From a virus, in IMG/VR virus record IMGVR_UViG_3300023179_000057, positions 1-64,000 of that record: a stretch of DNA of 64,000 bases; one strand, 5' to 3'. Below are positions 536 to 32,598 of the stretch, one piece after another. Made by a program: the position numbers and the translations under genes. The stretch's first letter is position 1; every line of letters begins with the position of its first letter. A model generated the notes under the pieces. It was not told the DNA's origin. It did no database searches and saw only the letters and a program-made list of their open reading frames with translations.

Positions 536-925
536 TCAGATTTTAGGATAATGACCGCTATCTTCTAGAACAAATCCTTTTTCTCTGTCAAATAAATTAT
601 ATTCCATAGAAATGATATTAAAGTTTTCGCCCAATGCCAATAATACTTGTGGAAGATTCAATTCTCCGCAGGTATATAAATCAAACTGCATTAATCCTGG
701 ATCTTCTTCATCCCATATATGAAATGCTATATGGCTAGTCTCAATCATTACAATAGCCGTAAGTCCACGATTGCCTGGTTTGTCAACGTAAGAGGCAAAA
801 GGTCCTTTAATAATCTTCATGTCAATACGATCAACTAATTTTTCTAAGAAAGCCATTGCTTGGCCTTCAGTCTTCATAGGTTTTTCAACTCTGGCGTTGA
901 TTAATAAGTGTTTGTGAAATATCAT
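536..925 (-). CDS. S-adenosylmethionine decarboxylase-like pyruvoyl enzyme (SpeD/SpeH type)
   Basis: Family members self-cleave before a serine to form a pyruvoyl cofactor and decarboxylate AdoMet for spermidine synthesis; some relatives act on arginine or ornithine. With the start at 925 the protein has 129 residues, the size of the short bacterial SpeH class. The core reads ETSHIAFHIW, then FDLYTCGE. S64, H69 and C86 correspond in spacing to the pyruvoyl serine, the processing histidine and the catalytic cysteine. The residue before the serine is Thr63 rather than the usual Glu. A longer frame runs back to 1003, but a good minus-strand promoter (947-975) lies inside that extension, and GGGGG sits four bases before the 925 ATG. 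The real substrate is uncertain. Confidence 0.8.
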   Translation of the reverse strand: MIFHKHLLINARVEKPMKTEGQAMAFLEKLVDRIDMKIIKGPFASYVDKPGNRGLTAIVMIETSHIAFHIWDEEDPGLMQFDLYTCGELNLPQVLLALGENFNIISMEYNLFDREKGFVLEDSGHYPKI

Positions 926-946
926 ACTACCCCCATCTATATTTAT

Positions 947-975
947 AGTATACACTATTTGATAAAATTCTTCAA
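947..975 (-). promoter_or_regulatory. Sigma70-like promoter for the AdoMetDC-like gene
   Basis: On the minus strand, TTGAAG (970-975) and TATACT (947-952) are separated by exactly 17 bases. Predicted initiation near 940 leaves a 5' UTR of about 15 nt that ends in GGGGGUAGU before the AUG. It overlaps the rightward promoter of the divergent gene. Confidence 0.7.
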
Positions 976-2211: not shown

Positions 2212-2409
2212 TCACCACTTACCAATTGGACAATAAGCCTTTTCTAATTGCGTCTTCATACTCATAAAACATCCACATTTTTTACATCGTTGAGTTAATG
2301 GTTTGAACCAAGGACACTCATGACAAATATCTAATCTCTGCCTAACCAACTCCTCTGAAACCCTAGGGGATCCATTTATCATATCCCAAGGTTTAACTTT
2401 TTTAGACAT
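2212..2409 (-). CDS. Small cysteine-rich zinc-binding protein (65 aa)
   Basis: Seven Cys in CHEC, CKKCGC and YCPIGKW suggest one or two zinc sites. The CKKCGCFM...K...CPIGKW pattern resembles small conserved proteins I associate with marine T4-like and other environmental phages, function unknown. I chose the start at 2409: it overlaps the upstream stop by eight bases and has AGAGA just upstream. The longer in-frame start at 2469 would overlap the upstream gene by 68 bases and add a sequence unlike the rest. Confidence 0.6.
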   Translation of the reverse strand: MSKKVKPWDMINGSPRVSEELVRQRLDICHECPWFKPLTQRCKKCGCFMSMKTQLEKAYCPIGKW

Positions 2410-3115
2410 GGCTATCTCTTTTTCTTTGCATTTTTCTATATGATCTATTTGGTTTAAATTCTCCATCATAAATTAAATTATGTTTTTTAAATATTTTTTC
2501 ATCTTCTTTTGTTTGATATCTAATTTCATTTTTTATTTTATTTGATCTTTTAAATGGAATATATAAAACAAATGGTTCTCCCTTTTTTATAATTACATCT
2601 TTTCCATTTCCATGATATAAAACTTGTTGATTAATTATAGGATGTATATCTGTATCTGTTACACCAGGCAGCACCGACCATTCTTGATTAAAATGATAAA
2701 ACAGTGGTAATTGCAAAACAGACCATCCTGGAGGTGTAATAATTTTCCAAGGAGAGTTTGCTTTAAAAACAAATTGAGATTCTATTCCATTAAAACTTGT
2801 TTTTGTATAATCTAATAATTGAGAAGGTGCATGTATATCCCAAGAAAAATCTTTTAGTGCTGAATTCCAACTCCAAGCACCAATTTCTTTTTCATATTTT
2901 AAAGAAACGTCACACCACATAGGAATAATATATCCTTGAGAAAAGTAGTCTGGAAAAGATGGACAGGCCTTGACACTAAGAGAATTTGTATTTGGTATAT
3001 TTTTAAACCATTCTGGTATAAAATGTTTAGCAGGTCTTGGCAAACACTCTTCAATAGTTTCCAAACCCTCAACAGTACTAATAAACTGTATCTTATCGGA
3101 TTTCTTAAAAATCAT
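2402..3115 (-). CDS. Hypothetical protein (237 aa) with conserved Trp/Pro-rich core
   Basis: Overlaps the upstream gene by four bases (ATGA). Notable blocks are HFIPEWFKNIP, KACPSFPDYF, IPMWCDV, HAPSQLLDY, ITPPGWSVLQLP and GEPFVLYIPFKR. The density of Trp, Pro and His suggests an enzyme or ligand-binding beta-barrel. I recall similar proteins in cyanophage-like genomes that also carry halogenases, but I cannot name a family. No signal peptide or membrane segment. A distant paralogue lies two genes downstream in the same operon. Confidence 0.6.
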   Translation of the reverse strand: MIFKKSDKIQFISTVEGLETIEECLPRPAKHFIPEWFKNIPNTNSLSVKACPSFPDYFSQGYIIPMWCDVSLKYEKEIGAWSWNSALKDFSWDIHAPSQLLDYTKTSFNGIESQFVFKANSPWKIITPPGWSVLQLPLFYHFNQEWSVLPGVTDTDIHPIINQQVLYHGNGKDVIIKKGEPFVLYIPFKRSNKIKNEIRYQTKEDEKIFKKHNLIYDGEFKPNRSYRKMQRKRDSHV

Positions 3116-4617: not shown

Positions 4618-4875
4618 ATGACTCCACAAGACTGGGCAGGATTAATTCTTACATCTCTTACAATTATAACAATTGTTGCAGGTGGAATTCGTTGGCTTGT
4701 AAAACATTATTTAAACGAACTTAAGCCGAATTCTGGCTCAAGTCTCAAAGACTCCGTTAATCGCTTGGAAGAAGATCATAAAAGAGTCGCCGACAAAGTG
4801 GATCATTTATACGAGATATTGATTGATTTTATCGCTAATCAAAATTCTAAGAAATCTAAATCTTCTAAATCTTAA
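4618..4875 (+). CDS. Holin-like membrane protein (85 aa)
   Basis: One strong membrane helix (residues 7-28), a basic stretch, then LKPNSGSSLKDSVNRLEE and a coiled coil ending in a Ser/Lys tail. This single-helix plus PNSGSSLKDSVNR layout matches the DUF2746-like holin candidates of actinophages, which lie near lysis genes. The lysozyme gene lies about 4.5 kb away on the other strand. I start at 4618 rather than the TTG at 4609, because the promoter -10 ends at 4608. Likely permeabilises the membrane at lysis. Confidence 0.65.
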   Translation: MTPQDWAGLILTSLTIITIVAGGIRWLVKHYLNELKPNSGSSLKDSVNRLEEDHKRVADKVDHLYEILIDFIANQNSKKSKSSKS

Positions 4876-5016: not shown

Positions 5017-5077
5017 TTGTCTGGTTTATAACGTTTTGTTATAATATGTCCGATTTATAATAATACAATGTTATAAT
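5017..5077 (+). promoter_or_regulatory. Two tandem promoters ahead of the putative small RNA
   Basis: P1: TTGTCT (5017-5022), 17 bases, TATAAT (5040-5045) with TGT. P2: TATAAT (5072-5077) with TGT but no clear -35. P2 predicts a start at G5084, exactly at the base of the hairpin that follows. The rest of the gap 4876-5016 is AT-rich, and I see no gene in it. Confidence 0.55.
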
Positions 5078-5083
5078 TTTTGT

Positions 5084-5135
5084 GCTGGCACCTAGATACT
5101 ACCCCCACCCCACTGCGTCTAGGTGTCCAGTTTTA
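5084..5135 (+). ncRNA. Putative small regulatory RNA: hairpin with C-rich loop and T-run
   Basis: CTGGCACCTAGA (5085-5096) pairs with TCTAGGTGTCCAG (5118-5130), with a single bulged base. The 21-base loop is rich in C, and TTTT follows at 5131. With its own promoters and a U-tail this is a complete transcription unit of about 50 nt with no reading frame. The segment ATACTACCCCCA (5096-5107) is identical to plus-strand bases 924-935, so the RNA loop is perfectly complementary to the ribosome binding site and AU of the start codon of the minus-strand AdoMetDC-like mRNA. A second loop motif, ACCCCAC, matches the GTGGGGT before the ATG at 47857. It could instead be only a terminator for the holin unit. 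Confidence 0.5.
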
Positions 5136-5140
5136 TTTAA

Positions 5141-5149
5141 TGGTATAAT
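5141..5149 (+). promoter_or_regulatory. Extended -10 promoter (TGGTATAAT), leaderless
   Basis: TATAAT at 5144-5149 and ATG at 5158, eight bases between. No -35 and no Shine-Dalgarno. Lies directly after the terminator-like hairpin, so it restarts transcription for the baseplate genes. Confidence 0.6.
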
Positions 5150-5157
5150 CAATTATC

Positions 5158-5559
5158 ATGTGTGCTCCTACAATAGAAAAATATGGCGCATCGCCAGCAA
5201 ACATTCAATGGACCGTAGTCCGTGGAGACAGCGCAACACTAAAAATAGAGTTTTTTGAAGATGACGAAACCACCTACTGGGATACAGACGGTTGGACATT
5301 TTTATCTACAGCCTATGATCCAGCAGGAGATTTTTTTGACGAACTAACCGTAACTGATGAAGCAGGGTATGTAACAATTTCAGTTGCAGCAGATATTACG
5401 GAAAACTGGGGAAGTCAATATAAAACCGTAGTATCAGAATTGCCTTTTGACTTAAAGGTTACAATTCCTGGAGGTAGTGGAGAAGAAGACACAATTTGGA
5501 CACCAGTAGTTGGAACTATATGTGTTCTTGGAAATGTTACTCCTGGAGGAAGTCTATAA
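5158..5559 (+). CDS. Baseplate/minor tail Ig-like protein (133 aa), BppU-N-like
   Basis: NIQWTVVRGDSATLKIEFFEDD near the N-terminus and a closing WTPVVGTICVLGNVTP are the hallmark of the beta-sandwich domain seen at the N-terminus of BppU-like baseplate proteins (an 'RGDt' strand and a terminal 'GxixV' strand). Two paralogues occur at 6418 and 10046. Likely a virion protein that links fibres to the tail tip. Its stop overlaps the next ATG (TAATG). Confidence 0.55.
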   Translation: MCAPTIEKYGASPANIQWTVVRGDSATLKIEFFEDDETTYWDTDGWTFLSTAYDPAGDFFDELTVTDEAGYVTISVAADITENWGSQYKTVVSELPFDLKVTIPGGSGEEDTIWTPVVGTICVLGNVTPGGSL

Positions 5560-6393: not shown

Positions 6394-6402
6394 TGGTATA
6401 AT
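6394..6402 (+). promoter_or_regulatory. Extended -10 promoter (TGGTATAAT), short leader
   Basis: TATAAT at 6397-6402, AGGAGG at 6408-6413, ATG at 6418. Initiation near 6409 would place the start point inside or beside the Shine-Dalgarno sequence, leaving an unusually short leader. Confidence 0.6.
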
Positions 6403-31902: not shown

Positions 31903-32598
31903 ATGGCAACAACCGTTTATCAAAATAAAATAATAAAACTTATTGATGGTACAGAGTTAGAAATTATGCCATTAAAAATAAAATATTTGCGTGAATTTAT
32001 GGAAGAATTTGAAAATGTTAAAAAGGCCAAAAATGATGATGAAGCAATAGAGTATTTAGTAACTTGTGTAAAAGTTGCTATGAAACAATATTATCCAGAA
32101 ATATCAGTAGAAAAGTCTGATGTAGAAGATGCTTTTGATATGCCAACCATATATAAAATATTAGACGTTGCAGCAGGTATAAAAATAAATGATAAGTCAG
32201 AAGAAACTGTAAAAAATCAAGCCGAAGATAGTGGTTCCACATGGTCTGATTTAGACTTAGCAAAAATAGAAGCAGAAGTATTTTTGCTGGGAATATGGAA
32301 AGATTACAAAGAATTAGAAGAGTCTTTATCTATGCCAGAATTAATGGCTACTCTTTCTAGCCGTAGAGAACTTGATTACGAAGAAAAAAAGTTTCTTGCT
32401 GCAATTCAGGGGGTAGATTTAGATAAACAATCTGGATCTTCACGAGGGCAGAAAGAATGGGAAGACATGAAGGCTAGAGTATTTAGTAAAGGAAAAACTA
32501 GTGATAGTAAAGACATCTTAGCACTTCAAGGACAAAATGCCAAGAAAGCAGGGTTTGGCATTGGCATGGGCCTAGAGTACGAAGATTTAACAAAATAA
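31903..32598 (+). CDS. Tail assembly chaperone, long form (231 aa)
   Basis: Residues 1-105 share the plan of the 109-aa product of the next gene: KLIDGTELEIMPLKIKYLREFMEEFE, VKVAMKQYYPE, and DMPTIYKILDVAAGIKI. Residues 118-231 add WSDLDLAKIEAEVFLLGIWKDYKELEESLSMPELMATL and SRRELDYEEKKFLAAIQGVDL, the extension that other siphoviruses make only by ribosomal frameshift (gpGT type). Here it is a separate gene, with a promoter of its own. Confidence 0.7.
   Translation: MATTVYQNKIIKLIDGTELEIMPLKIKYLREFMEEFENVKKAKNDDEAIEYLVTCVKVAMKQYYPEISVEKSDVEDAFDMPTIYKILDVAAGIKINDKSEETVKNQAEDSGSTWSDLDLAKIEAEVFLLGIWKDYKELEESLSMPELMATLSSRRELDYEEKKFLAAIQGVDLDKQSGSSRGQKEWEDMKARVFSKGKTSDSKDILALQGQNAKKAGFGIGMGLEYEDLTK

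Follow-up and report, generated by a model that had tools for sequence, protein, structure and literature searches.

Antisense RNAs that control plasmid copy number are encoded opposite their targets and are fully complementary to them, and their pairing is begun by a hairpin loop. RepG of Helicobacter pylori is a chromosomal RNA, longer than the one described here and unrelated to it in sequence, that pairs via a C/U-rich terminator loop with a site that does not lie at the Shine-Dalgarno. The passage on RepG in PMC8295292 gives its target as a variable G-repeat in the tlpB mRNA leader. The 6C/B11 small RNA (RF01066) comprises three helices, with two C-rich loops (PMC6582537); B11 represses eccB4, which carries a six-G tract in its 5' UTR, and the B11 loops are needed (PMC10470900), while the title of a reference cited there reports that 6C, unaided by chaperones, binds several mRNAs through its C-rich loops. 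According to a review (PMC12197685), known phage-encoded small RNAs regulate both phage and host genes.

We analysed a 64-kb window at the start of a 91,654-base IMG/VR virus record and found a hairpin with a C-rich loop between a holin-like gene and a phrog_1084 gene (Table 1). Like 6C, the hairpin occurs in an actinobacterial setting and has a C-rich loop; unlike 6C, it is a single hairpin and phage-encoded. Membership in the 6C family was rejected, since RF01066 gave no match even at E 10, whether at the locus or across five complete records, and requires two C-rich-loop hairpins, whereas a single hairpin lies between P1 and P2 in all members. The hairpin family is absent from Rfam as judged by model searches, with no match at the gathering threshold in the window and four relatives and none to the hairpin locus even at E 10, and it differs in this from the known phage-encoded small RNAs of that review. 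As with RepG, a small RNA appears to be aimed at a G-rich leader, here by predicted pairing: the loop is complementary to 12 nt at the start of a speD-like gene, the kind of complementarity that a 6C-like mechanism, C-rich loop on G-rich leader, would use. The original prediction had likened the RNA to plasmid copy-number systems, and this likeness fails, because the RNA is not encoded opposite its target, the two loci are 4.1 kb apart and the match is 12 nt long; pairing begun by a hairpin loop is the feature that would apply to both.

Table 1. Features of the hairpin locus and of the candidate target gene in the window
Feature	Position	Strand	Remarks
Upstream small membrane/holin-like gene	4621..4875	+	syntenic neighbour
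Upstream extended -10 box TGTTATAAT	5037..5045	+	from sequence and relatives; only in close relatives
P1, extended -10 box TGTTATAAT of small RNA	5069..5077	+	6 nt before stem foot; predicted first base 5084
Hairpin RNA	5084..5131	+	arms 5084-5097 and 5117-5131, bulged U 5126, 14 bp
C-rich loop ACTACCCCCACCCCACTGC	5098..5116	+	19 nt
T-rich tract TTTTATTT	5131..5138	+	weak intrinsic-terminator-like tail, predicted RNA 3' end; from sequence
P2, extended -10 box TGGTATAAT of next gene	5141..5149	+	8 nt before its ATG
Downstream conserved gene, phrog_1084	5158..5559	+	syntenic neighbour
speD-like pyruvoyl decarboxylase gene (AdoMet_dc)	536..925	-	PF02675 E 1.9e-12, phrog_3125 E 1.1e-15
Candidate target TGGGGGTAGTAT	924..935	-	Shine-Dalgarno, spacer, first two bases of speD start codon
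Predicted speD promoter (TTGAAG, 17 nt, TATACT)	947..975	-	consensus match only; leader ~15 nt

In the window, the hairpin folds with -20.1 kcal/mol (z -5.25), and none of 200 shuffles was equally stable. The predicted hairpin was thus confirmed with other dimensions, a 14-bp stem and a 19-nt loop from 5098 in place of 12 bp and 21 bases from 5097. The segment antisense to the speD start does lie at 5096-5107, but it is not wholly in the loop, because 5096-5097 are stem bases; the rest of the loop, 5108-5116, is not antisense to speD. A small ORF through the hairpin (5082-5258) was rejected because single-base variation of the C-run among members breaks its frame.

Several signs indicate that this virus group infects low-GC freshwater actinobacteria. 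A WhiB-like gene lies beyond the window end, at record position 77054-77227, and WhiB-like genes are a mark of actinophages. The major capsid protein of the record is similar to those of Streptomyces phages, and Planktophila phage LanE43-AprF5 encodes a relative of the holin-like protein; together these three signs point to an actinobacterial host, probably in freshwater. Two scans of genome contigs for relatives of the phage proteins returned none.

To place the hairpin among its relatives, we gathered related contigs by using speD, the holin-like protein and the loop motif as queries; all relatives compared are metagenomic, and their gene starts were called with a simple script. With a covariance model we obtained 54 clean members in 54 loci, and the family is present in at least 54 related phage contigs. 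Each record has one copy, which is flanked as a rule by the holin-like gene on one side and the phrog_1084 gene of the tail region on the other. Among 52 distinct sequences, 12 of the 14 stem pairs show changes on both sides and 97.1% of cells pair; the covariation score is 0.505, whereas it is 0.249 for shuffles and does not exceed 0.098 on sliding. A structure-first scan, which looked for hairpins before extended -10 boxes whatever the sequence of the loop, yielded hardly anything but this family; it also brought in divergent members in L013, L017 and L069, whose loops end in ATACCCACC. L025, L027 and L031 keep a hairpin at the holin-like/phrog_1084 junction, but its loop is TTCTATAAATGC, it lacks the C-run and it is not preceded by a clear P1; it looks like a small RNA reduced by decay to a mere terminator-like stem. 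A further conserved element that is rich in C, AGGGAAAG(T/C)CCCCCCCTCCCCCCATAGATT, lies 3' of the holin-like gene (L023 3410, minus strand; L069 10214 and L079 11956, plus strand); it has no Rfam match and is possibly a second structured RNA.

The promoter architecture is equally regular. In 53/53 members checked, as compared to about 4 expected, an extended -10 box precedes the stem foot by 6 or 7 nt, while the -35 side of P1 is poorly conserved among them. This agrees with the claim that the second of two tandem promoters sets a (predicted) start at the stem foot; both boxes exist in the window, but conservation in relatives holds only for the second. P2 follows the hairpin in 51/53 members, the other two having a TATAAT/TATACT box that overlaps the model end, and its distance to the next ATG is 8 nt as a rule, so that the mRNA from P2 is probably leaderless. 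Further TGGTATAAT boxes lie at 6394, 7352, 10028 and 28009 (plus strand) and 9951 (minus strand), which with the one at 5141 makes 6 in the window against 1.18 expected (0 of 100 shuffles had as many); these boxes may define a class of phage promoters that lack a -35 box. With P1, the tail and the stem covariation, the claim of a small-RNA gene is well backed, and we consider it very probable that the hairpin represents a small-RNA family; its anatomy is the one expected of an independently transcribed RNA of about 55 nt.

The loops fall into two classes, class I with U(A/U)CUA-C(4-7)-ACCCCACUGC and class II mostly with GCUCUCUACCC(A)C(n)ACUGC. The length of the C-run varies freely among members; the 3' part of the loop, which includes CCCCACUGC, is nearly invariant. 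Since the invariant CCCCACUGC does not pair with speD, speD alone cannot account for the conservation of the loop, which implies at least one further partner for CCCCACUGC. As a target of this segment, rRNA was rejected: there is a 9-nt match at 16S position 354, but 35% of shuffled loops match too. A search of phage coding regions for a conserved target found only scattered 8-9-mers.

The 12-mer ATACTACCCCCA occurs exactly twice in the window (924-935 and 5096-5107; 0.01 expected from shuffles), as originally reported. On the minus strand, 924-935 covers a GGGGG Shine-Dalgarno (930-934), a TAGT spacer and two bases of the ATG (923-925), in agreement with the placement proposed before, and the product is an AdoMet_dc protein; its GenBank phage relatives are almost only Pelagibacter phages (38-49% identity). 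The partial matches listed earlier at 32409 and 55480 both exist. When we searched the 130 start regions of the 91.7-kb genome, speD was the best for the loop at -22.2 kcal/mol and the next was at -17.7 (RNAduplex values, which ignore loop strain). Matches this long do occur by chance: a match of at least 12 nt at any of the 130 starts was seen for 190 of 20000 dinucleotide-shuffled loops and 18 of 20000 mononucleotide-shuffled loops. A chance match of 12 nt at a start site is unlikely, not astronomically so.

Across the 22 records with both a hairpin and speD, loops fit their own speD leader better on average (mean -13.9 kcal/mol) than swapped loops do (-11.3 kcal/mol), in a test that is inflated by the relatedness of the phages. 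Because kinship could yield such a gain, we used 23 other gene families of the same 22 records as a control. We found that speD is first of the 24 shared families in own-loop fit, with none of the other 23 below -8.8, and that its loss on loop swapping is the largest (z -4.9; next family -2.5 at most). When the families are ranked over whole records by the percentile of their own-loop fit, speD again comes first. Its starts are in the top 10% in 6/8 hairpin-bearing records, as compared to a median percentile of 0.37 in hairpin-free records (MWU P 0.04; 15 hairpin-free speD starts, two of them, in L079 and L082, mis-called). There is thus a statistical excess of speD.

Loop and leader are related by class: all hairpin-bearing records with a CTA-C(4-7) class I loop have a G-run of 4-5 in the speD leader, and none with a CUCUCU-type class II loop does. 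On the speD tree, where support is moderate for both placements, L015, with a class I loop and G5, falls together with L029, which has a class II loop and no G-run, and nested among class I phages is L008, whose hairpin is class II-like and whose start is leaderless. Loop as well as leader differs between the sisters L038 and L040 (support 98/93), and their own fits of -15.7 and -14.4 fall to -9.2 and -8.1 when crossed. Other relatives meet speD through other loop segments, UGCUCUCU with AGAGAGCA and GUCUCU plus CCUCUG with CAGAGGAGAGAU.

In contrast to this reciprocal change, leaders also change alone. Among close class I relatives the leader after the G-run varies (TAGT, AAGT, TAAAT, AAAT, AGCT, AAAC) and the loop keeps CTA; class I loops without the window/L003 lineage fit their own leaders no better than swapped ones (P 0.27). 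The relatives thus point both ways on covariation of loop and leader, and the independent change that had been named as evidence against pairing is seen in part. L013 and L017 share a common loop, yet their speD leaders are GGAG and GGGG, and a search of L008 and L029, where the hairpin is present, found no usable speD site. The 12-bp pairing is limited to the lineage of the window, L003 and L007 (11 in L003 and L007), and is the extreme of a looser relation, not a conserved duplex, as far as the sequences compared indicate. In 22 of 30 hairpin-bearing records searched, all fragments, speD was not seen, and one of the eight matches (G021) is weak and partial; since most hairpin-bearing contigs show no speD, it cannot be the sole target. 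The proposed antisense relation to the speD start is thus supported in part, in that speD is the best-fitting family, but the 12-bp duplex belongs to one lineage and speD is not the only target. Over all starts, own loops had no genome-wide advantage over swapped or reversed ones, and a genome-wide regulon of G-run Shine-Dalgarnos was rejected, as their share is 8.3% with and 8.4% without the hairpin.

These observations can be read in other ways. The RNA may be genuine and have its conserved job elsewhere, on host mRNAs, host RNA or an RNA-binding protein, the speD match being in the main a side effect of C-rich loops encountering G-rich Shine-Dalgarnos. The unpaired CCCCACUGC, the freely variable C-run, the many carriers that show no speD and the lack of a genome-wide advantage of own loops all agree with this; however, speD is set apart from all other shared gene families and tracks changes in the loop, and the search for a conserved partner in rRNA and phage coding regions yielded none beyond the rRNA match expected by chance. 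We regard this reading as possible but doubtful.

It is unlikely, in our view, that the hairpin is a cis element, either a terminator or insulator before P2 or a 5'-end hairpin protecting a longer P1 message. The strong stem and the T-rich tail, which most family members have, would suit a terminator, as would the place just before P2 in nearly all members and the three records that retain a hairpin with neither C-rich loop nor clear P1, yet a terminator needs neither a conserved loop of about 20 nt (19 nt here) nor a private promoter at a fixed distance. A terminator pattern scanner, with a loop limit of 8, did not list the hairpin. The gene upstream of the hairpin is divergent in G016, G018 and G019, which leaves no upstream operon to end, and the downstream phrog_1084 gene is without a Shine-Dalgarno for a long P1 message to use. 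Since the inverted repeat is conserved at a single genomic location, it could also be a DNA-level site (a cruciform, or a recombination or protein-binding site); we consider this very improbable, given that a promoter stands 6-7 nt upstream without exception, that the loop is strand-specific and C-rich, and that the stems drift freely by compensation.

Taken together, these data suggest that positions 5069-5139 would be a non-coding RNA gene of a freshwater actinobacteriophage group, its transcript starting at the stem foot and stopping at the T-rich tail, with a rigid stem presenting an open C-rich loop of about 20 nt. Phage accessory genes with purine-rich ribosome-binding sites would be its targets: the loop would pair with these sites in trans and so block 30S binding. 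We give an even chance to the general proposal that the C-rich-loop RNA acts on accessory genes, speD included, at their ribosome-binding sites, and see the specific one, trans action on speD in the window phage and some relatives, as equally balanced. The clearest target in the window phage would be speD, by 12 bp across the Shine-Dalgarno and start, and the loop probably helps to keep it quiet; other accessory genes may be targets in relatives.

The multi-copy accessory family phrog_7084 (window 2402-3115, minus strand, and relatives) has an IPEWY motif and six copies in the record, one family member is weakly like DUF6065, and in related phages the hairpin loop fits the G-run Shine-Dalgarnos of several members. 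In own-loop fit, 11 of the 38 starts of the phrog_7084-like family in hairpin-bearing records reach the top 10% (P 0.0009), and 0 of 5 do so in hairpin-free ones. A more speculative suggestion, which we make tentatively, is that these widespread actinophage small RNAs are a common silencer of accessory genes (speD, phrog_7084-like), in which several pyrimidine-rich loop segments would hold down genes with a matching ribosome-binding site and the loop and the genes would co-evolve.

The hairpin is thus a well-supported phage RNA family, new to Rfam, with a metabolic gene of the virus as its concrete candidate target. Sister phages supply, in their loop-leader pairs, ready-made natural mutants for this pairing. 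If confirmed, it would mean that auxiliary metabolic genes are timed by a phage RNA.
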